A DNA stretch of 64,000 nucleotides from Rhodanobacter sp. T12-5 (GTDB taxonomy: Bacteria > Pseudomonadota > Gammaproteobacteria > Xanthomonadales > Rhodanobacteraceae): the NCBI RefSeq assembly GCF_008329435.1, contig NZ_NPKN01000003.1:1-64000 (forward strand), read 5' to 3'. The position numbers were made by a program, and so were the translations under genes. Positions within the stretch are counted from its first letter, which is position 1; each line of letters opens with the position of its first letter. Shown one piece after another: positions 16,839 through 41,879 of this stretch. Under the pieces are notes generated by a model. That model made no database searches. It saw only the letters and a list, made by a program, of their open reading frames with translations, and had not been told where the DNA came from.

Positions 16839-17615
16839 ATGATCACGTCAGCCATGCGGAACCGGCGTTCGCGCCTGCGTGCGGTGCGGTGCCTGGGTTC
16901 GTTGCTCGCGCTAAGTCTGGTTGGCTTCGTCGCGATGGCCGCCGACCAGCCATCGACACCCGCCCATCCAGCCATTCCCGACACCTTGCAGCAGCGCATC
17001 ATCGCCTGCACCACCTGCCACGGCGTACATGGTGAAGGCACGCCGGGCAGCGGTTATTTTCCGCGTCTGGCCGGCAAACCGGCGGCTTATCTGGCGCGCC
17101 AGATGCAGGATTTCCAGAATGGCCTGCGCAAGTACGCGCCGATGGAATACACCGTGCGCCAACTCAGTCCCGCCTACATGCAGGAAATCGCCGAGTACTT
17201 CGCGACACAACAAGTGCCCTACAGTCGCTCGCCATTGCCGCCGGTTCCCGCGACGGCGTTGCAACGCGGCGAACAGCTGATCAGCAAGGGCGATCCCGCG
17301 CGCAGGATCCCCGCCTGCGCCAGTTGCCACGGCAACCAGCTCACCGGCGTGGAGCCATCCACGCCGGGCCTCGTCGGCTTGCCGTATGACTACATCAGCG
17401 CGCAACTGGGCTCGTGGCGGACGCATACCCGTGCGACGCTGGCACCCGACTGCATGGCTGTCGTCGCCAATCGGTTGACCGATTCGGACATCACGGCAGT
17501 GGCCGCGGCGCTGGCCAGTCGCCAGTTGCCGGCCGACACGCACGCGCAGGCCGCAGGATCGGTGACGCCACCGTTGCCTTGCGGCGTACTGGGTGCGACG
17601 GGAGATACACCATGA
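16839..17615 (+). CDS. Diheme cytochrome c, c4-like
   Basis: A periplasmic electron carrier with two class I cytochrome domains. From ATG 16839 the product is 258 residues. A basic n-region (RNRRSRLRAVR) and a hydrophobic stretch end in AMA near residue 34, a Sec signal peptide. Heme sites are CTTCH (57-61) and CASCH (160-164); M102 and M206 are plausible axial ligands. The repeat spacing matches cytochrome c4. ATG 16854 is an alternative start. The stop overlaps the start of the triheme gene (ATGA), so the two are one operon. No catalytic dehydrogenase or oxidase lies beside them, so the electron partner is unknown. Confidence 0.9.
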   Translation: MITSAMRNRRSRLRAVRCLGSLLALSLVGFVAMAADQPSTPAHPAIPDTLQQRIIACTTCHGVHGEGTPGSGYFPRLAGKPAAYLARQMQDFQNGLRKYAPMEYTVRQLSPAYMQEIAEYFATQQVPYSRSPLPPVPATALQRGEQLISKGDPARRIPACASCHGNQLTGVEPSTPGLVGLPYDYISAQLGSWRTHTRATLAPDCMAVVANRLTDSDITAVAAALASRQLPADTHAQAAGSVTPPLPCGVLGATGDTP

Positions 17616-18904
17616 AATGGTTGCGTCGGCTGTCGCTGCTGATCGTGGTGCTGATCGTGCTGGTGCTGGGCTGGGTGCTGTTCGGTCGCAGCGGCCGTGA
17701 ACCCACCCCTCCCGGCACGAGCAAGGTCACCGCCACCACCCTGCACGATCCGGCACTGATCGCCAAGGGTGAATACCTGGCGACGGTCGGCGACTGCGCC
17801 GGCTGCCACACCGCGCAAGGTGGCGCGCGTTACGCCGGCGGTCGTTCGCTGGCTACGCCATTCGGCGACATTCCCGTACCCAACATCACGCCCGATCGCG
17901 AAACCGGCCTGGGCGACTGGAGCTTCGAGAACTTCTGGCAGGCGCTGCATGCCGGCAAGGGCCGTCACGGCGAGTTGCTGTATCCGGCGTTCTCGTACAC
18001 CTCGTATACCAAGGTCGACCACGACGATGCGCTGGCGATTTTCGCCTTCCTGCAATCGTTGCCGCCGGTGCACCAGCCGGCCAAGCCCACCTTGTTGAAA
18101 TTTCCTTACAGCGTGCGCAAGAGCCTGGTGGCATGGCGCGCGCTGTATTTCACGGAAGGCGAATTCCAGCCGGACCCGGCACAGTCGCCGCAATGGAATC
18201 GCGGTGCCTACCTGGTACAGGGGCTGGGCCATTGCAATGAGTGTCACGCTGCACGCGATTCGCTCGGCGGAACCCCGCCGGATGTGCACCTGACCGGTGG
18301 TCAGATCCCGATGCAGAACTGGTACGCGCCGGACCTGAGTACCCGCCAGAACGGCGGTCTGCAGGGCTGGCGCGAACAGGACATCGTCGATCTTCTGAAA
18401 ACCGGTCAGTCGGCCAGGGGTGTGGCGTTCGGCCCGATGGCCGGGGTGGTGGCCAACAGCACCCAGCACATGACCGATGACGACCTGCGGGCGATCGCGA
18501 CCTACCTGGGCTCGCTGCCGCCGCGCGCATTGCCGGTGGCAGAAACCCAGCTGTTCAATGCCGACGCGATCGTCCGCGGCGGCGGGAAGATCTACGCGCA
18601 GCATTGCGAGCAATGCCATGGCAAGGACGGCAACGGCGTCGCCGGCGTGTATCCACCGCTCAACGGCAACAGCTCGGTGACCGAACCGACCGGCATCAAT
18701 GCGACCCGGATGATCCTGCTGGGCGGATTTGCCCCGCTTACCGCCAGCCATCCGCGCCCGTACTCGATGCCGCCGTTCGCGCAGCAGCTGAGCGACGTCG
18801 AGGTGTCGGCCGTGGCCAGCTACATCCGGCGGTCGTGGGCGAACCAGGCTTCCGTCGTGCGCCCGGACGACGTCAGCAAGTACAGGCATACGCCGATCGA
18901 TTGA
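17612..18904 (+). CDS. Membrane-anchored triheme cytochrome c
   Basis: The 430-residue product begins with a basic n-region and one long hydrophobic helix (residues 8-24) without an obvious cleavage site, so it is likely membrane-anchored in the periplasm. Three heme sites are CAGCH (62-66), CNECH (208-212) and CEQCH (332-336). The three-domain layout resembles the cytochrome subunit of membrane alcohol, gluconate and sorbitol dehydrogenases. Those act with a PQQ or FAD subunit that is not encoded nearby. It overlaps the upstream diheme gene by 4 bases. It may pass electrons from the quinone pool to the diheme partner (inference). Confidence 0.88.
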   Translation: MKWLRRLSLLIVVLIVLVLGWVLFGRSGREPTPPGTSKVTATTLHDPALIAKGEYLATVGDCAGCHTAQGGARYAGGRSLATPFGDIPVPNITPDRETGLGDWSFENFWQALHAGKGRHGELLYPAFSYTSYTKVDHDDALAIFAFLQSLPPVHQPAKPTLLKFPYSVRKSLVAWRALYFTEGEFQPDPAQSPQWNRGAYLVQGLGHCNECHAARDSLGGTPPDVHLTGGQIPMQNWYAPDLSTRQNGGLQGWREQDIVDLLKTGQSARGVAFGPMAGVVANSTQHMTDDDLRAIATYLGSLPPRALPVAETQLFNADAIVRGGGKIYAQHCEQCHGKDGNGVAGVYPPLNGNSSVTEPTGINATRMILLGGFAPLTASHPRPYSMPPFAQQLSDVEVSAVASYIRRSWANQASVVRPDDVSKYRHTPID

Positions 18905-27220: not shown

Positions 27221-28660
27221 ATGGATTCATTGATCGCCCTCGCCGAAAGCAAGCTGTTGTCCCCCGGCGGCATCGCCACCGGCGACCTCGACCGTGTGTT
27301 CACCCAGCTGATGGGCCCGTCGATCGACGCCGCCGACCTGTACTTCCAGCATTCGCGCAGCGAGTCGTGGACGCTGGAGGAAGGCATCGTCAAGGACGGC
27401 AGCCACTCGATCGAGCAGGGCGTTGGCGTGCGCGCCATGTCCGGCGAAAAGACTGGCTTTGCCTATTCCGACGAGATCGTGCTGCCGCAATTGCTGGAGG
27501 CATCGAAAGCCGCGCGCGCCATCGCCCACGACGGCAATGGCGCCGGTCGGCCGCTGGCGCTGCACAACGCCCGCGCGCTGTATCCGGCGATCGATCCGGT
27601 CGAAAGCCTGCCCAACCCCGACAAGATCGCCCTGCTGCGCGAGGTCGACGCGTACGCGCGCTCACGCGACCCGCGCATCAAGCAGGTCATCGTCAGCCTC
27701 GCCGCGACCATGGACACCATCCTGATCGCCGCCTCCGACGGCACCCTGGCCGCCGACGTGCGCCCGCTGGTGCGCATCAACATCCAGGTGATCGCCGAGC
27801 AGAACGGCCGGCGCGAGCAGGGTTACTCCGGCGGCGGCGGCCGCTACGGCTATCGCGAGCTGATCGAGAACGGCCGCGCGCTGGCGTTCGCCGACGAAGC
27901 GGTACGCCAGGCGCTGGTCAACCTGGATTCGGTCGACGCGCCGGCCGGCCAGATGACCGTGGTGCTCGGCCCCGGCTGGCCAGGCGTGCTGCTGCACGAG
28001 GCGATCGGCCACGGCCTGGAAGGCGACTTCAACCGCAAGGGCAGCTCCGCGTTCTCCGGCCGCATCGGCCAGCGCGTGGCGGCGAAGGGCGTCACCATCG
28101 TCGACGACGGCACCCTGGTTGGCCGCCGCGGTTCGCTCAGCATCGACGACGAAGGCACGCCGACCGAATGCACCACCCTGATCGAGGATGGCATTCTAAA
28201 AGGCTATATGCAGGACAAGCTCAACGCCCGCCTGATGGGCATGGCGCCGACCGGCAACGGCCGCCGCGAGTCGTTCACTGCGCTGCCGATGCCGCGCATG
28301 ACCAATACCTACATGCGGGCCGGCCAGCACGACCCGGCCGAGATCATCCGCTCGGTGAAGAAGGGCCTGTACGCGCCGAACTTCGGCGGCGGCCAGGTCG
28401 ACATCACCAACGGCAAGTTCACCTTCTCCGCCAGCGAGGCGTACCTGATCGAGGACGGCAAGATCACGCGTCCGGTGAAGGGAGCCACGTTGATTGGCTC
28501 AGGTCCGGATGTGCTCAACCGCGTCTCGATGATCGGCAACGACCTGGCGCTGGACGAAGGCGTGGGCGTGTGCGGCAAGGACGGGCAGAGCGTGCCCGTC
28601 GGCGTGGGCCAGCCGACGCTGAAGATCGACTCGATGACGGTGGGCGGCACCGCGTCGTAG
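27221..28660 (+). CDS. tldD: Metalloprotease TldD
   Basis: TldD is the catalytic zinc subunit of the cytosolic TldD/TldE protease, which degrades unfolded peptides and in E. coli matures microcin B17 and degrades the CcdA antitoxin. The product is 479 residues (E. coli 481). The HExxxH zinc site is HEAIGH (259-264), followed by [16 protein letters not shown]. The partner pmbA/tldE is in the same window about 6 kb downstream rather than adjacent. The start [13 protein letters not shown] is at the first sensible ATG. Confidence 0.97.
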
Positions 28661-28907
28661 CCGCGCGGGTCTGTTCGTTCGCCGGCGGCATGATTCCGCG
28701 GGTTCGAAAGTATTTGCGCGTCGGCGCATGGCGACCGTGGTGGCGACCTGCCGCGGCGAAACGGCGCCGCGCCGTTCATCGGATTACTTGATCGAAGTCA
28801 ACACGTCGTGCATCCATCAGCTCAGGCTGGCGACATTCTTCCCGGCGACGGAGTGGATGCGCATGAACGGTCATTGCAAGGGCCACGCTGGTGGCCGGTT
28901 CGTGTCC

Positions 28908-30251
28908 ATGCGCCTGCTGCGGCGCTGGGCGTTGCTGGCGGTGCTGGCGTGGCTGGCGGTCGTGCCCACCCTGGCGCTGGCATTGCCCTCGTACGCACGG
29001 CAAACCCAACTCGCCTGCGTGGCGTGTCACGTCGGTGCCTTCGGGCCGGAGCTCACCGCGTTCGGGCGACAGTTCAAGCTGATGGGCTACACCATGAAGG
29101 TCGGCGACGCGAAGGAGTTGCCGCTGTCGGCGATGCTGGTGGAGTCGTTCACGCATACGCAGAAGGCTCAGACCGATGCTCCCGCCAAGGGCTTCGGCAG
29201 CAACGACAACACCGAGCTGCAGCAGGCCTCGGTGTTCCTCGCCGGGCGGCTGAGCGAGCACATCGGCGTCTTCGCCCAGGCCACCTATTCCGAAAACGGC
29301 CGGCTGCTTGGCTGGGACAACGTGGACCTGCGTTACGCGCGCATGTTCAGCCGCGGCCGCCACACCGGTATCTGGGGTGTCACGATCAACAACAACCCCA
29401 CCGTCAGCGATGTGTTCAACACCGCGCCGGCGTGGATGTACCCATACATGTCGGCGGACCTGGCGCCAGGCGCTCCGGCCCAGCCGATGCTGTTCGGCGG
29501 CTTGGGTGGTCAGGTGATCGGCGCCAGTGCCTACGTGCAACTGGACGGCGCCTGGCACCTGGAGGCCGGCGGCTATCGCTCGCTGTCGCCGGCGTTCCTG
29601 CGCCACGTCAATGCGGACTACGACGGCCGCCTGAGCGGGATCACGCCATACGCGCGGGCGGCCTACACCTGGAGCCTGCCCAAGGGCGACCTCACCGTCG
29701 GTGGCTTCTTGCTGAGCATGCGCCGCGGCCTGGCCGGCACCAACCTCGCCGGCGACGCGGTACCCGTGGCCGGGCCAACGGACCGCTTTCGCGATGTCGG
29801 GCTGGACTCCAGCTACCGATACGTCAATGCCGACCACAGCTTCACCGCGGGCGCACTGTACGTGCACGAGCAGCAACGCCTGGACGCCACCTACGCCGAC
29901 GGCGGCGCCGATCATCTGCACAACAGCCTGCAGGCGTTCAACCTCAAGGTCAGTTACTGGTACCGGCAGACCTATGGTGTGACCCTGGCATCGTTCATCG
30001 ATAACGGCAGCAACGACATCACCCTGTACGGCAACAACGGCTCGCCGGATACCCGCGGTGAATCCATCGAGCTCAACTACGCGCCGTTCGGCCAGCCCAC
30101 TTCGTGGCGACAGCCCTGGGTCAACGTGCGGTTGGGCCTGCAGTACACCTACTTCACGCGCTTCAGCGGACTGGTGCACAACATCGACGGGGCAGGGCGC
30201 AACGCCAGTGCCAACAACACGCTCTACTTTTACGTGTGGCTGGCGATCTGA
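28908..30251 (+). CDS. Cyc2-like fused monoheme cytochrome-porin, outer membrane
   Basis: From ATG 28908 the product is 447 residues. The signal peptide is MRLLRRWALLAVLAW... ending ALA near residue 25. The mature start is LPSYARQTQLACVACHVG with one heme site CVACH (37-41), then ELTAFGRQFKLMGYT. The remaining 380 residues alternate hydrophobic and aromatic strands with Gly and Asn turns, as in a beta-barrel, ending LYFYVWLAI. This layout (PS-ARQT, CxxCH, LT-FGR-FKL-GY, barrel) is that of Cyc2, the outer-membrane iron oxidase of Fe(II) oxidisers. Many relatives have unproven roles. ATG 28863, with GGAG 9 bases upstream, is an alternative start. The 28661-28907 gap has no other gene. Confidence 0.78.
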   Translation: MRLLRRWALLAVLAWLAVVPTLALALPSYARQTQLACVACHVGAFGPELTAFGRQFKLMGYTMKVGDAKELPLSAMLVESFTHTQKAQTDAPAKGFGSNDNTELQQASVFLAGRLSEHIGVFAQATYSENGRLLGWDNVDLRYARMFSRGRHTGIWGVTINNNPTVSDVFNTAPAWMYPYMSADLAPGAPAQPMLFGGLGGQVIGASAYVQLDGAWHLEAGGYRSLSPAFLRHVNADYDGRLSGITPYARAAYTWSLPKGDLTVGGFLLSMRRGLAGTNLAGDAVPVAGPTDRFRDVGLDSSYRYVNADHSFTAGALYVHEQQRLDATYADGGADHLHNSLQAFNLKVSYWYRQTYGVTLASFIDNGSNDITLYGNNGSPDTRGESIELNYAPFGQPTSWRQPWVNVRLGLQYTYFTRFSGLVHNIDGAGRNASANNTLYFYVWLAI

Positions 30252-30506
30252 ACCGCGGCGTCGCGCCCGTGCACCGAAGCGCAGCAAACTCGCCGCCGGC
30301 AGGAAGATCCATTCGCCCCGGGTGAAGTCGCAGGCGTTTGCTGCGACACGACCTTGTGCGCGGCAGCCTCGGCTGCATCCGGAGCGAAGGGTTGGAGACA
30401 GGCCAGGGGGCGCCGCCCGTGGACAGGTCTGGCGTACGCGCAGCAAGTCGGGTTCGGATGTGGCGGCGGATTAGTCGCCAGTTCCTGCGATTACGTAATG
30501 TATTGC

Positions 30507-30533
30507 GAATCAATTATTTGATTCCATTTTTTT
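30507..30533 (+). terminator. AT-rich intrinsic terminator
   Basis: GAATCAA (30507-30513) pairs with TTGATTC (30518-30524) around TTAT, then CA and seven T. It lies 256 bases after the Cyc2-like gene in a 437-base gap (30252-30688) with no recognisable protein. It may end a long 3' UTR or a small RNA. It is strikingly AT-rich for this genome. Confidence 0.65.
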
Positions 30534-30688
30534 GACGGGCGCACGGATCATTGGAAGCCGCGGCGTGTTAGCGTCGAACGCTGGCGCGGTCGGGAATTTG
30601 TCCGGGGGGACCCACGGCCGCGTCATGGGATTCCGGCCCGTTGGCGACCGGGATTTTTCTGTTCGCACCATCAATTCGGGGATGAACC

Positions 30689-32320
30689 ATGCAGATGAAG
30701 AAGACTTCGCTGTGCTTGGCGATGGGGGCAATCTGGGCGCTGGCGTCCACGGTCGCAACGGCGGCCGGCGTCGATGCAACCTGGAGAACGACGTCCACAC
30801 ACGCCCACGTGCCGGCCGCGTCGGTGAACATGGGTGACCTGGTGGCATTCGACATGCCGCTGCACGTGCAGGTGGCGTTGAAGATCCAGAACAAGGGCGC
30901 GCTCGACGATTTCATCGCCGCTGCGCACAACCCGGCCAGCCCGCTGTTCCGCGCCAAGCTGCAGGCGGGCGATGTGGCCGCGAATTTCCTGCCGAGCCAG
31001 GCGCAGGCGCAGGCCGTGGCCGATTACCTGAGTCGGTCCGGCTTCACCAACGTCAGCGTCTCCGCCAACCGCCTGCTGGTTTCGGCGGACGGTACCGCCA
31101 CCAACGCGAAGGCGGCGTTCGGTACGCGTTTCGTCAAGACTACCGATGAACACGGTCGCGCCGCGTACGCCAACATCGACGATGCCAAGGTGCCGGCCGC
31201 GCTGGCGGATGTCGTGCTGTCGGTGAGTGGTCTGCAAACCGTATCGCATCCGCACACCATGATCGTTGCGGCCTCCTCCCAGGGGCGCGTGGAGAAGGGC
31301 AAGCCGGGCGGTGGCGGCGGTGCTACCTTGGTGGGTCACAACCCGACCACCTTCGCGAGCATCTACGGCGCTGGTGGCACACCCACGGCTTCCACCATCA
31401 CCGTGGGCATCATCAGCGACGGCGACATGACGCAGCCGCTGAAGGATCTCAACCAGTTCACCACCACCAACGGCCTGCCTGCGGTGAACACCCAGGTGGT
31501 GACCGTGGGTACGCCGGGTACGGATACCAGCGGTACGCCCGAATGGGATCTGGACAGCCAGGATATCGTCGGTATGTCCGGCGGCGTCGGCAAGCTGATC
31601 TTCTACGCCGCCAATTCGCTGACCAACAGCGCGCTCACCGCAGCGTTCAACAAGGTGGTCAGCGACAACCAGGCTCAGGTCATCAACGTGTCGCTCGGCG
31701 AGTGCGAGACCAGCGCCTATCAGGACGGCTCGATGGCGGCGGACGACCAGATCTTCGCTCTGGGTGTGGCGCAGGGGCAGACGTTCTCCATCTCCACCGG
31801 CGACTCCGGCTCGAACGAGTGCACCAAGAAGCCGACCGGCACCACGCCGAGCTATCCGGCCAGTTCGCCGTATGTGGTGGCGGTGAGCGGCACCTCCCTG
31901 AGCACCGGCACGTCGAACAGCTGGGTGAGCGAGACGCTGTGGAGCGGTGCAGGCGGCAGTCCCAGCACGGTGGAGGCGAAACCGAGCTGGCAGACACAGG
32001 GCGGCGGCACTACCCGCGACGTGGCCGACGTGGCTTTCGATGCCGACCCGAATTCGGGCGCCATCATCATCGTCAACGGCAGCAACGCACAGTACGGCGG
32101 CACTAGCCTGGCGGCGCCGCTGTTCGCCGCCACCTGGGCCCGCATGCTGGCGGCCCATCCGGGTCTGGGCTTCGCGGCACCGCACCTGTACACCGTGTCC
32201 ACCGCCAGCTATCACGACATCACCTCCGGCAGCAATGGCGGCGAGACCGCGACGGTCGGCTGGGACTACGCCAGCGGATTCGGCAGCAGCATCGTTAGTG
32301 CGTTGAACGCGGGGCTGTAG
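30689..32320 (+). CDS. Secreted S53 family serine-carboxyl peptidase (sedolisin/pseudomonalisin type)
   Basis: A secreted protease active at acidic pH in characterised relatives. The 543-residue precursor has a signal peptide ending ATAA near residue 26 and a pro-domain (about 35-190; pro-kumamolisin activation type with the YLSRSGF and LLVSADGT region). The catalytic domain carries E285 and D289 (PEWDLDSQD), the oxyanion aspartate D372 (TGDSGSNE) and nucleophile S473 (GGTSLAAP). The calcium site is at D510 and D526 (GWDYASGFG). ATG 30689 has GGGGA 8 bases upstream. It stands alone, followed by a hairpin at 32337-32368. Confidence 0.93.
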   Translation: MQMKKTSLCLAMGAIWALASTVATAAGVDATWRTTSTHAHVPAASVNMGDLVAFDMPLHVQVALKIQNKGALDDFIAAAHNPASPLFRAKLQAGDVAANFLPSQAQAQAVADYLSRSGFTNVSVSANRLLVSADGTATNAKAAFGTRFVKTTDEHGRAAYANIDDAKVPAALADVVLSVSGLQTVSHPHTMIVAASSQGRVEKGKPGGGGGATLVGHNPTTFASIYGAGGTPTASTITVGIISDGDMTQPLKDLNQFTTTNGLPAVNTQVVTVGTPGTDTSGTPEWDLDSQDIVGMSGGVGKLIFYAANSLTNSALTAAFNKVVSDNQAQVINVSLGECETSAYQDGSMAADDQIFALGVAQGQTFSISTGDSGSNECTKKPTGTTPSYPASSPYVVAVSGTSLSTGTSNSWVSETLWSGAGGSPSTVEAKPSWQTQGGGTTRDVADVAFDADPNSGAIIIVNGSNAQYGGTSLAAPLFAATWARMLAAHPGLGFAAPHLYTVSTASYHDITSGSNGGETATVGWDYASGFGSSIVSALNAGL

Positions 32321-32336
32321 CTCCCGCGATGCGTCG

Positions 32337-32368
32337 CGCGGGCGTCCGCCGAGAGGAGGGCGCCCGCG
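32337..32368 (+). terminator. Hairpin after the S53 protease gene
   Basis: CGCGGGCG (32337-32344) pairs with CGCCCGCG (32361-32368) around a 16-base loop, followed by TTGTATTT. Probable terminator 16 bases after the stop. A further GCGGGCC/GGCCCGC hairpin is at 32447-32465. The rest of 32369-32644 shows nothing recognisable. Confidence 0.6.
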
Positions 32369-32644
32369 TTGTATTTGGCCCATGTGCAATTGCTGTGCGG
32401 CCGGTCGACCCCGCCTCACCGCAGCACAGCGGCCCTGGCTGGAGCAGCGGGCCATCCCGGCCCGCACCCGGTACTCAACCGCTGCGCGGTTGCGAGAGCT
32501 GGAGGGCTCTTGGCGTTGGATGGAAAATCCGCCTAGGGGTGAGTGCCTGCTTTCGGTCAGACATTGCCGCGATGACTCACGAAGCCGTAAAGATGTTTGT
32601 GGAGAAAGGAGCCCAAAGCATTTTTGATGCGGGCGCCCAAGCCA

Positions 32645-33016
32645 TCATTGGGCCAGGTAGAAATCCATGGGGATAAGCTCGATGGCCCATCCGCATTCTT
32701 CGCCCAGCGTGGCGGCCGGGTGCATGGATGCGATGCGCAGCGCCTCGTCGCGGCTGTCCGCCTCGATGATGAACAGTCCGCCCACCACTTCCTTCGACTC
32801 GGCGTAAGGCCCATCGGTGACCTGCGTCTTGCCGTTGCGCGGGCGAAGCGTCCTCCAGCTGTCCAGGTCGCCAAGCGACGCGGAAACCAGAACCTTGCCG
32901 GTAGCGCGCATCTTCTCGTCCAATGCCGGGCATTGGCTCACCAAATCCTTGACATCGCCTGGCTCCATCGCGGCGAATTTTTCGGGGGTGAAGTAGGCCA
33001 GGCCGAGGTATTTCAT
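32645..33016 (-). CDS. YciI-like (DGPF domain) protein
   Basis: A 123-residue cytosolic protein of the YciI/YCII-related superfamily. It starts MKYLGLAYFTPEKFAAM, contains TDGPYAESKEVVGGLFIIEA (the DGPF-type motif) and a late IELIPMDFYLA. Family members are ferredoxin-like dimers; many are encoded next to ECF sigma factors, but none is here. The function is unknown. AGGAT lies about 6 bases upstream of the ATG. Confidence 0.8.
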   Translation of the reverse strand: MKYLGLAYFTPEKFAAMEPGDVKDLVSQCPALDEKMRATGKVLVSASLGDLDSWRTLRPRNGKTQVTDGPYAESKEVVGGLFIIEADSRDEALRIASMHPAATLGEECGWAIELIPMDFYLAQ

Positions 33017-33394
33017 GGGAGATCCTTTGGGTGGGAATGCACTGACGACGAAGCTGATGATCGGAAATCGACAATACTCCGGGAGAGTTTGCAGCGGGTC
33101 TCGGCCATTCTGTCCGTTTGGGGTCGATAGCCGTCAGCATCCGCAGGCGCTGCACCAAGACCATGGGGCATCGCGGAAGTAGTGGTTCCGGACAACTGGC
33201 TGATGGGTGAAAAACGAACTGGCACGAAGAGGTGTTTGCGCCGCTCGTCACGACGACAACAGCCCTGCGGAGTCGACCGAAATGTCTCCCCGGACTTGGT
33301 GGGCATGGCGAGGGCATGGCTGCCCGGGTTGAGACAACGCAGGAGCGGTTGCCCGATGCCCGGCAAGCGCCAGGCGGGGTGTCGTTTTCTCTTG

Positions 33395-33430
33395 GGTACT
33401 TCTCTGTTGGAAAAGCCAAAGAGAAGTGCC
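33395..33430. repeat. Imperfect inverted repeat, possible repeated intergenic element
   Basis: GGTACTTCTCT (33395-33405) is nearly complementary to AGAGAAGTGCC (33420-33430), with TTGG/CCAA nested inside. It lies in the gene-free stretch 33017-33523. Open frames across it have no recognisable protein. From memory, similar TACTTCTCT...AGAGAAGT elements recur in xanthomonad intergenic DNA; a genome search would be needed. Confidence 0.5.
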
Positions 33431-33479
33431 TCGGCTGCCGAAGGCAGACCAAAGCTCTTGCTTTCAACCTCACAACTCC

Positions 33480-33503
33480 CAGGAGCCCGCGAGCGGGCTC
33501 CTG
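33480..33503. repeat. REP-like palindrome
   Basis: CAGGAGCCCGC and its exact complement separated by GA, 20 bases before the end of darP. It shares the GGAGC-palindrome core with the elements at 36875 and 58740. Confidence 0.7.
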
Positions 33504-33523
33504 CGGATATCGGGTTGCGGGCG

Positions 33524-34078
33524 TCAGCCCTCGGCCGAATCGTCCGACTGCGCCAGATCCTTCAACAACTGGAAAATTTCCCGATAGGCCTTTGGCGGCT
33601 TGTTCGGCGTGTCCTTCTCCACGCGCGCCTGCCGTACCAGCGACCGCAAATGCTGGCGATCGACCTGCGGATGCTCGGCGATCAGTTCGGACAATGCCGC
33701 TTCATCCTCGGCAATCAACCGGTCACGCATTGCTTCGAGGCGATGCATCGCGGCGGTTTCCTGGCGCTGCTTGTCGCGGTTCTCGCCGAGTTCGGCGCGC
33801 ACCGCGGCGAAGTCCTCGTCGCCGTAGCGGCGCATGACCTTGGCGAGGAAGGCCAGCTGGCGCTTCTTCGCGCCGTGGGAAGGGGTGCGGCGGGTGACGT
33901 CGATCTCGTGGCGCACGTCGTCCGGAAGCGCCAGCTTGGCCAGCCGGCTCGGTTGCAGGTCGACCAGTTGTTGCGCCAGTGTCAGGACGGCCAGGGCTTC
34001 GCGGCGCTTCTGGGTGCGGCTGGGGCCGTAGTCTTCTTCGTCGAGTTCGGTCTGGTTGCGGCTGCGGCTCGGGCTCAC
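33524..34078 (-). CDS. darP: Ribosome-associated protein DarP (YjgA, DUF615)
   Basis: DarP assists late 50S subunit assembly. From GTG 34078 the product is 184 residues (E. coli 183), starting MSPSRSRNQTELDEEDYGPS. The family block GPSRTQKRREALAVLTLAQQ and the two helical repeats (QRQETAAMHRLEAMRDRLI) are clear. The frame is open far upstream, but that part overlaps the DUF1653 gene and is not conserved. It lies 29 bases downstream of the DUF1653 gene, and the pair is divergent from pmbA, the same yjgA/pmbA arrangement as in E. coli. Confidence 0.93.
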   Translation of the reverse strand: MSPSRSRNQTELDEEDYGPSRTQKRREALAVLTLAQQLVDLQPSRLAKLALPDDVRHEIDVTRRTPSHGAKKRQLAFLAKVMRRYGDEDFAAVRAELGENRDKQRQETAAMHRLEAMRDRLIAEDEAALSELIAEHPQVDRQHLRSLVRQARVEKDTPNKPPKAYREIFQLLKDLAQSDDSAEG

Positions 34079-34107
34079 GGTATTCAATTCCAGGAATGGG
34101 GCGGTGA

Positions 34108-34347
34108 TCAGCTGTGTCGATCGTCGTTGGCGGGATCGGCCTGCTCCAGTGCGAAGCGGGCGATCGGTTCGCCGTCCAGTTCGATGGTCTCGCTGAACAT
34201 CGCGGCGGGGCGTACCCACAGGCCGTGATCGCCGTAGAGCGCCTGGTAGACCACCAGCGGTTCCATCGTTTCGCTGTGGTGTGCAGTGCCCAGCACGCGG
34301 TAGCGCTGACCCTTGTAGTGGCGATAGATGCCGGCGGTGGGTTGCAT
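34108..34347 (-). CDS. DUF1653 domain protein
   Basis: A 79-residue protein made almost entirely of a DUF1653 domain: GIYRHYKGQRYRVLGTAHHS, then ETMEPLVVYQALYGDHGLWV and RPAAMFSE. It is a small beta-rich fold of unknown function. ATG 34347 is chosen because GGAG lies 8 bases upstream; an in-frame ATG at 34371 would add eight residues. It is probably cotranscribed with darP. Confidence 0.85.
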   Translation of the reverse strand: MQPTAGIYRHYKGQRYRVLGTAHHSETMEPLVVYQALYGDHGLWVRPAAMFSETIELDGEPIARFALEQADPANDDRHS

Positions 34348-41498: not shown

Positions 41499-41879
41499 AT
41501 GCCGAACCCGCCGTCCATCGACAACGCCAAACTCGACCGCATCGTGGCCGAGGCACGGCGCAACGCCGAGCAACGCGAGCTGGGCTATCGCGAGCGGGCG
41601 TTGAAGATGTATCCGTGGATCTGCGGCCGCTGCGCGCGCGAGTTCACCCGCGCGAACCTGCAGGAACTGACCGTGCACCACCGCAACCACGACCACGACT
41701 ACAACCCGCCCGACGGCAGCAACTGGGAGCTGCTGTGCGTGTATTGCCACGACAACGAGCACTCGCGGCATATCGACCATGTGCGCGGCGGGGTGATGGC
41801 GGTGGATGACGCGCCTGCGGCCACCGGGAATCCGTTTGCCGACCTGAAGGCGATGATGGAGCGTGGCAAAAAAGCGTAG
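41499..41879 (+). CDS. yajD: YajD family HNH nuclease
   Basis: A 126-residue protein with a zinc-stabilised HNH nuclease fold: ICGRC (first Cys pair, about 42-46), LTVHHRNHDHDYNPPDGSNW (the HH catalytic pair and Asn) and LLCVYCHDNEHSRH (second Cys pair and His). Length and layout match E. coli YajD, whose substrate is unknown. It is encoded on the + strand between the - strand genes accA and dnaE. A REP-like hairpin follows its stop. Confidence 0.9.
   Translation: MPNPPSIDNAKLDRIVAEARRNAEQRELGYRERALKMYPWICGRCAREFTRANLQELTVHHRNHDHDYNPPDGSNWELLCVYCHDNEHSRHIDHVRGGVMAVDDAPAATGNPFADLKAMMERGKKA

Follow-up and report, generated by a model that had tools for sequence, protein, structure and literature searches.

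Locus and gene

The window, i.e. the whole analysed stretch of 64,000 nucleotides at the start of contig NZ_NPKN01000003.1 of Rhodanobacter sp. T12-5, contains on its forward strand an ORF reaching up to 30251. Its product begins with a hydrophobic leader, continues with ALPSYARQT, CVACH, PEL and TAFGRQFKLMGY, and has a long remaining part (Table 1). A first-pass annotation made from the letters had described a Cyc2-like fused outer-membrane cytochrome-porin here. The reading frame, hydrophobic leader, single CVACH and flanking residues it named are all present in the sequence, and the barrel-like domain of about 380 residues corresponds to the ~377 residues after residue 70. Position 28661 is not the start of the gene but the first base past the tldD stop codon.

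Most tests were performed with the translation from ATG 28908 (P0001, 447 residues), the shortest of the starts considered. ATG 28857 and ATG 28863 are as likely or likelier, because the homologues L002-L004 have an N-terminus resembling the longer forms of the window protein and a GGAG is located 9 nt upstream of ATG 28863. Scans for promoters, terminators and repeats around the gene gave nothing of note. For the whole gene, dN between the window copy and four relatives (L002, L003, L004, L089) was 0.14-0.20 and dS 0.47-1.07. As dN is well below dS, the gene is under purifying selection. It is the sole match in its own genome at the thresholds used.

Table 1. Features at the cytochrome-porin locus (window coordinates).
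Feature	Position	Strand	Remarks
tldD (PmbA_TldD domains), upstream neighbour	27221-28660	+	no redox domain found
Presence/absence segment	28661-30251		absent in same-genus genome G126
Cyc2-family cytochrome-porin gene	28863-30251	+	stop codon TGA 30249-30251; start uncertain (ATG 28857, 28863 or 28908)
Hydrophobic signal-peptide stretch	28908-28979	+	residues 1-24 of P0001; sequence judged by eye, cleavage site inferred
ALPSYARQT, family N-terminal signature	28980-29006	+	published form AXPXFAR[Q/K][T/Y]; Y for F here
CVACH, c-type haem attachment site	29016-29030	+	residues 37-41
PEL (PXL motif)	29046-29054	+	five residues past CVACH
Predicted 16-strand barrel	29124-30245	+	residues 73-446; AlphaFold2 model and porin matches
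Met76	29133-29135	+	candidate second (distal) haem ligand; in 69/72 rows of alignment A2
Protein with pro-kumamolisin activation domain, downstream neighbour	30689-32320	+	likely S53-type peptidase; no redox domain found

The same-genus genome G126 shows the locus without the gene: the end of tldD is followed by sequence aligning, with gaps, to that past 30251, and the next gene is 93% identical. This junction identifies 28661-30251 as an accessory segment, for which either gain or loss may fit. Among 38 stretches checked, tldD was found in six; the cytochrome-porin gene follows it in five (L089, L091, L171, L172, L177) and lies on its opposite side, adjoining yhdP, in L173. The interval between tldD and pmbA (28661-34327 in the window) varies in content and in length, from 1.3 to 5.7 kb in the 12 stretches with both genes, and resembles a small variable site.

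In the 147 sampled genomes of the bacterial family, a match at E 0.001 or better was found in 81 and one of at least 50% identity in 36. At the latter threshold, the window-clade Cyc2 is present in five of the 11 same-genus genomes (G000, G018, G039, G093, G116). In the phylum sample, 75/299 genomes have a match. A scan of named genomes gave 80 loci among the matches listed, of 581 confirmed, from Rhodanobacter, Dyella, Frateuria, Oleiagrimonas, Lysobacter, Thiomonas, Derxia, Azoarcus and others; no title among these 80 names Acidithiobacillus, Mariprofundus or Leptospirillum.

Copies split into two pieces were seen in Acidiphilium multivorum (L209, NC_015179.1, beside a transposase) and at G008:C2:578231-579534, suggesting loss in some hosts. 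Two plasmid records, of Acidithiobacillus ferrooxidans (L204, CP084173.1) and Acidiphilium cryptum (L208, NC_009469.1), carry cytochrome-porin genes with the same score and share as neighbours a cytochrome, a transposase and U32 peptidases; their likeness reflects either recent transfer or a mixed assembly. The A. ferrooxidans plasmid match (H6) was rejected as the studied Cyc2, since its scores equal those of the Acidiphilium plasmid match and it is not chromosomal.

Family assignment and predicted structure

Three profiles were built from homologues outside the window's clade and run against the 315 window ORFs, three pieces of P0001 and 200 shuffles. The profile of four rusticyanin-type rows (L084, L087, L038, L040) matched the window ORF with an E value of 9.2e-88 and the barrel alone with 3.2e-73. 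The profile of seven alphaproteobacterial-type rows gave E 1.3e-130, and that of 16 zeta-type rows E 3.6e-21 (cytochrome part 1.3e-12, barrel 0.0026). With these clade-free profiles, the next best E value among the 315 window ORFs was 0.044 and no shuffle fell under 0.2. Thus, a match of 9.2e-88 is beyond chance, and in this search against Cyc2-type relatives, which had been proposed as a check, the ORF was the only clear match of 315. That the zeta-type profile matches mainly the cytochrome part agrees with the published contrast between a poorly conserved porin domain and a cytochrome domain which is the most conserved part of Cyc2 (Keffer 2021, PMC8406198). The zeta-type rows are those of group f32, which has many matching genomes in the phylum sample; judged by motif and match frequency, they are presumably Zetaproteobacteria.

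No Pfam model exceeded its cut-off for the window protein (one chance match, E 0.24) and no NCBIfam match was obtained; hence, its identity rests on the home-made profiles, the tree and the structure model. A phmmer search against PDB chains gave six chance matches to superoxide dismutases (E 0.2-0.49), which were discarded.

The N-terminal signature was compared with the published form AXPXFAR[Q/K][T/Y]. According to Keffer 2021 (PMC8406198), sequences without PXFAR[Q/K][T/Y] were dropped before their tree of 1,593 sequences was computed. The window motif, PSYARQT, misses this strict form by one conservative residue, Y for F, so the screen would have excluded the window protein. Among 148 rows, the strict form occurs in 84 and the Y-for-F form in 35; the other 29, including the rusticyanin-linked L084, deviate in different ways. 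Since the strict form is found in only 84/148 rows and is missing in L084, it does not bound the family in this sample. With the strict motif missed, membership is claimed in the broad sense only.

Further properties used to delineate the family are present. The protein has a signal peptide (judged by eye) and one CXXCH. The PXL motif, expected about four residues past CXXCH, occurs as PEL after five residues, a spacing shared by 109/148 rows (3, 4 or 5 residues in 138/148). The length of 447 residues lies above the minimum of 365, and the model predicts a 16-strand barrel like that of OprO/OprP. With search patterns which flank the haem site and exclude CXXCH itself, a CXXCH-bearing ORF was recovered in 77 of the 80 named relatives; L112, L136 and L147 gave no ORF with a haem site and were left out of the 80 loci. 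The haem sites in 72/72 rows of alignment A2 carry no weight, because these rows were chosen by scripts seeking CXXCH.

A phylogeny, likewise proposed in the first-pass annotation, was computed with IQ-TREE from 85 rows and 417 columns; the tree is unrooted. The window protein pairs with L002 (99/98). Its clade of seven rows (97/98) includes Rhodanobacter and Oleiagrimonas, that of 19 rows (99/97) is made up of Rhodanobacteraceae/Lysobacter, and that of 30 rows (100/100) also includes Thiomonas, with Thiomonas sp. FB-6 (L124) inside it. L084, L087, L038 and L040 form a group (100/97) in another part of the window's side of the tree, and a 100/100 branch splits the zeta-type rows from that side. 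For these groups, an earlier quick tree of 88 rows agreed. The window protein thus belongs to a Rhodanobacteraceae/Lysobacter clade neighbouring Thiomonas, on the side of the rusticyanin-operon proteins, a position which suggests that it may belong to Cluster 2.

The genomes of the window's bacterial family contain at least three separate groups, namely that of the window, one with CHVSFPELTPYGR sites and a long-branch group with CHAGAYGPALTPYGMRFK-like sites; in the latter two, a haem-site ORF was found in 11 of the 12 stretches read. Five loci of this bacterial family (L183, L184, L191, L192, L194) have separate haem-porins with the CHVSFPELTPYGR site, whose genes are followed immediately by one for a dihaem c4-like protein.

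AlphaFold2 was run on the 72-row alignment A2 and returned a model with pLDDT 92.4 and pTM 0.88, in which 16 strands lie between residues 73 and 446. Three short helices within residues 27-58 bear the haem site; the model itself is without haem. In the signal region, residues 2-18 form a helix, and pLDDT is low at residues 1-3 and 18-24. The top rows of a Foldseek search were porins (BpsOmp38, E 7.5e-10) and AlgE. AlgE and FadL, both in the Foldseek list, are porin-like barrels other than 16-stranded. VIA-align gave Z 21.8 for OmpC and Z 21.1 for OprP and OprO, with most aligned from about residue 27; Z values within 1 of each other count as ties. OprO/OprP are also named as the structural match of Cyc2 by Keffer 2021 (PMC8406198). 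Met76, a candidate distal haem ligand, is located at the start of the first strand in the model and is found in 15/16 rows of alignment A1, including two of its three zeta-type rows.

A prediction without a barrel had been named beforehand as speaking against a Cyc2-like protein; the model shows, at high confidence, a 16-strand barrel with an N-terminal haem segment. The first-pass description is borne out by profile, tree and predicted structure together, and membership in the Cyc2 family, in the broad sense, is well supported. As regards function, the protein is a candidate.

Electron-carrier genes and the multihaem operon

Of 77 named loci (among the matches listed), 34 have a homologue of a carrier or of b561 within 1.5 kb and 32 have a soluble carrier. 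According to the seed search, these 34 comprise HiPIP (7), cupredoxin (5), cytochrome c (20) and b561 alone (2; L130 and L142), b561 being a membrane protein. For the 39 loci with both flanks, 18 carrier and 8 b561 matches were found near the gene, and no carrier or b561 match in a distal control region 4.5-6 kb away at the same loci; this search is partly circular, as its seeds were drawn from the same loci. A seed-free count of CXXCH ORFs gave 16/39 loci near the gene and 1/39 far from it. This count and the plasmid records are less circular, with some of the CXXCH ORFs probably being non-carriers (e.g. at L114 and L124). In the plasmid collection, an annotated c-type cytochrome or HiPIP lies close by in all nine matching records, two pairs of which (H2/H3 and H6/H7) are near-duplicates; a c-type cytochrome is the next downstream gene in eight and lies ~2 kb upstream in the ninth. 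Pfam confirmed HiPIP, Copper-bind, Cytochrom_C and b561 domains in example neighbours. Naive clustering of neighbouring ORFs was abandoned, as it mixed in antisense ORFs of the G+C-rich DNA.

A divergent HiPIP was found in Dyella and in Rhodanobacter B04/B05, an azurin-type protein in two of three Lysobacter, and a dihaem c4-like protein in the CHVSFPEL group. On the tree, carrier type changes five times among linked rows, or 15 times with 'none' counted, based on hand labels for 57/85 rows and with short flanks in some of the 20 'none' rows. This hints that carrier type tends to follow clade. Among the matches listed in a literature search, covering titles and the openings of abstracts, no paper on carrier choice by clade in Cyc2 was found.

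No carrier gene lies beside the window copy, where tldD and the pro-kumamolisin protein are the neighbours, and the seed search found none beside its nearest named relatives (L089-L092, L096, L106; some flanks short). Co-occurrence of HiPIP with Cyc2 is uninformative, as 140/147 family genomes have HiPIP. Seven loci of Dyella and Rhodanobacter (L093, L094, L097, L101-L104) contain Cyc2-like genes each with its own divergent HiPIP gene. Among the matches listed, a HiPIP lies ~0.4-0.5 kb from each of three close paralogues in G104, and G066 has two such pairs. Near the cytochrome-porin of L093, L094, L101 and L104 (Rhodanobacter, Dyella) lies what we take to be a phosphoketolase-like gene.

Upstream in the window, at 16845-18904, a two-gene cytochrome c pair encodes a dihaem c4-like and a trihaem protein. 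The first-pass annotation had considered a link between the cytochrome-porin and this multihaem operon 10 kb upstream, for which neither co-occurrence nor location gives support. A trihaem match (E 1e-100 or better) was present in 29/36 family genomes with the window-clade Cyc2 and in 66/111 without; the 2x2 test (p 0.027) ignores relatedness and was not counted as evidence. The set of 36 genomes was listed by hand at ≥ 50% identity and includes the split copy of G008. The trihaem gene is located on other contigs than Cyc2 in G093, G116 and G137 and ~9 kb away in G039. In one MAG (L111), a 43-44% relative of the trihaem protein lies directly downstream of the Cyc2 homologue, so a functional tie between the two may still exist. 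A 44% relative of the trihaem gene is present at another place in the same genome (G000:C17:219937-221070). A further in-frame CXXCH of the window, LCVYCHDNEH, lies in a small ORF at 41499-41879 and presumably belongs to a zinc site of the HNH type, not to a haem site.

Proposed function and known systems

The computation supports family membership, the predicted architecture, purifying selection and carrier adjacency in relatives. Outer-membrane location, haem loading, donor, acceptor and direction of electrons we infer as follows. The protein would be exported and haem attached covalently at CVACH. The C-terminal part would form a 16-strand outer-membrane barrel, whose periplasmic mouth would hold the small N-terminal cytochrome. 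Fe2+, or less likely another dissolved one-electron donor, could enter the pore and reduce the single haem, which would hand the electron to a soluble periplasmic carrier and thereby to respiration. As no carrier gene is adjacent, the likely acceptors would be encoded elsewhere in the genome (HiPIP, cupredoxin or cytochromes c). The host genome, 100% complete according to the tool's figure, has one HiPIP match and two cupredoxin matches. It has no match to the RuBisCO large chain, MtrB/PioB (PF11854) or rusticyanin at E 0.001, and any Fe(II) oxidation would, given the missing RuBisCO, probably be mixotrophic.

A Cyc2-family cytochrome-porin passing electrons inward, with Fe2+ as the most likely donor, is the reading we favour and consider fairly probable. 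Fe(II) oxidation by the window protein would be the best guess. Against this reading weigh the missing carrier beside the window copy and the missed strict motif, and Keffer 2021 (PMC8406198) states that for much of Clusters 2 and 3 the function is yet to be verified. A Rhodanobacter isolate from the KS culture is also reported to have been unable to oxidise Fe(II) alone (PMC11366258). The latter speaks for the same protein and the same inward route serving a donor other than Fe2+, e.g. Mn(II), a reduced molecule of phenolic, humic or phenazine-like type, or, via a shuttle, a mineral or electrode surface. Such a donor would also suit the lack of a RuBisCO match and the presence of the family in many genomes, including genera without an iron-oxidiser label in the literature surveyed, and He 2017 (PMC5566968) raises extracellular electron transfer besides Fe(II) oxidation. 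One characterised Fe(II)-oxidising member in each of three clusters (Keffer 2021, PMC8406198) speaks for iron, and a different donor is given a minor share of the probability. Since Thiomonas FB-6 also has MtoAB (PMC5566968), its Fe(II) oxidation need not stem from Cyc2.

The sporadic presence as an accessory segment and the missing carrier gene would be compatible with protection instead of energy gain, i.e. removal of Fe(II) or another reductant at the surface, or a diffusion porin with a haem-plugged mouth. However, the recognisable redox neighbours of the relatives are a carrier or b561 (34/77 loci, 9/9 plasmid records), which makes a protective role improbable. A single haem in a pore could serve either direction, and the cell might use it to dispose of electrons, with extracellular Fe(III) or an oxidised shuttle as the sink. 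The usually high potential of HiPIP and azurin-type carriers counts against outward flow. So does the measured potential of Cyc2PV-1 (+208 mV; PMC8406198), a high value for reducing Fe(III) oxides near pH 7, and we regard outward flow as very improbable. An ordinary porin with a chance CXXCH, suggested by the resemblance of the barrel to general porins, is hardly credible given the CXXCH ORF in 77/80 named relatives and the match of the zeta-type profile to the cytochrome part alone (E 1.3e-12); a decaying gene is equally hard to reconcile with dN well below dS.

More tentatively, as a possibility falling somewhat short of probable, Cyc2-type proteins may constitute a general one-haem outer-membrane inlet, each clade with its own soluble acceptor, and the window copy a carrier-less accessory form feeding the HiPIP/cupredoxin pool. 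Dyella and some Rhodanobacter would use HiPIP as the acceptor, Lysobacter and a second clade azurin-type proteins, the Azoarcus and Derxia types cytochrome c together with b561, and another group of Rhodanobacteraceae a dihaem c4-like protein. If true, heterotrophs would gain an optional electron supplement from Fe(II).

Cyc2 has been put forward as a marker of iron oxidation, and its homologues occur in many bacteria not known for iron oxidation. Rhodanobacter is a proposed partner in nitrate-reducing Fe(II)-oxidising cultures. A single accessory gene in a culturable genus offers a direct route to asking whether a heterotroph's Cyc2 oxidises iron, and the carriers beside the relatives are candidate acceptors. 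As the Y-for-F motif illustrates, filtering strictly by motif can discard likely members.

Cyc2 homologues have been published for Rhodanobacter before, so the find is not new in kind. He 2017 (PMC5566968) reported them in the KS-culture Rhodanobacter and two Fe(II)-oxidising Thiomonas, Rhodanobacteraceae were placed in a cluster connected to Acidithiobacillus Cyc2 (PMC10654088), and Cyc2 was found in a MAG close to Dyella japonica (PMC7767972). The excerpts of these three reports contain no functional test of the Rhodanobacter protein. Much horizontal transfer has been inferred for Cyc2 (PMC12442345), and, according to PMC12622760, mixotrophic oxidation of Fe(II) by Rhodanobacter was proposed by Huang 2021. 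The published homologues belong to the same host family, or in the case of Thiomonas to a neighbouring clade, a likeness taken from the published descriptions. The window gene is ordinary in kind; what it adds is the carrier pattern seen across the family and a copy that is cleanly accessory.

The rusticyanin-operon Cyc2 of Acidithiobacillus, Acidiferrobacter and Acidihalobacter was compared via L084 and L087, two homologues in genome G692. Downstream of L084 and on its strand lie genes encoding COX2 and COX1 domains and one encoding a rusticyanin-like protein, which scored 137.2 bits with TIGR03095, below the cut-off of 146.7, and exceeded the cut-off for Pfam Copper-bind. This order agrees in outline with the Acidihalobacter rus operon (PMC10654088); no cyc1 was identified among the genes tested near L084. 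In L169, a homologue is part of a COX2-COX1-rusticyanin-like gene run. Like these proteins, the window protein combines an N-terminal haem segment with a barrel; identity to L084/L087 is 35-36% in A2 and the L084/L087/L038/L040 profile matches it over its full length. In contrast, it belongs to a separate clade and has no adjacent rusticyanin or cox genes, so the arrangement of cyc2 beside cyc1, cox and rus is not found at the window locus. With no PF11854 match at E 0.001, a porin-multihaem complex (MtrB/PioB/MtoB) is likewise not indicated.

Carriers lie beside Cyc2 in many of the loci described here and in Bradyrhizobium, where the published cluster contains HiPIP and three cytochromes c (PMC5566968), whereas the window copy is without such a neighbour. 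In barrel shape, OprP and OprO (2o4v, 4rjw) match at rmsd 3.6-3.7 with 11-13% identity; to our knowledge, neither has a cytochrome domain. Cyc2PV-1 of Mariprofundus ferrooxydans (Cluster 1), for which a 16-strand model is published (PMC8406198), has the same kind of N-terminal signature as the window protein and was compared via the f32 rows only. With these zeta-type rows the window protein shares ~18-23% identity and a likeness nearly confined to the cytochrome part, and the 100/100 branch lies between them.
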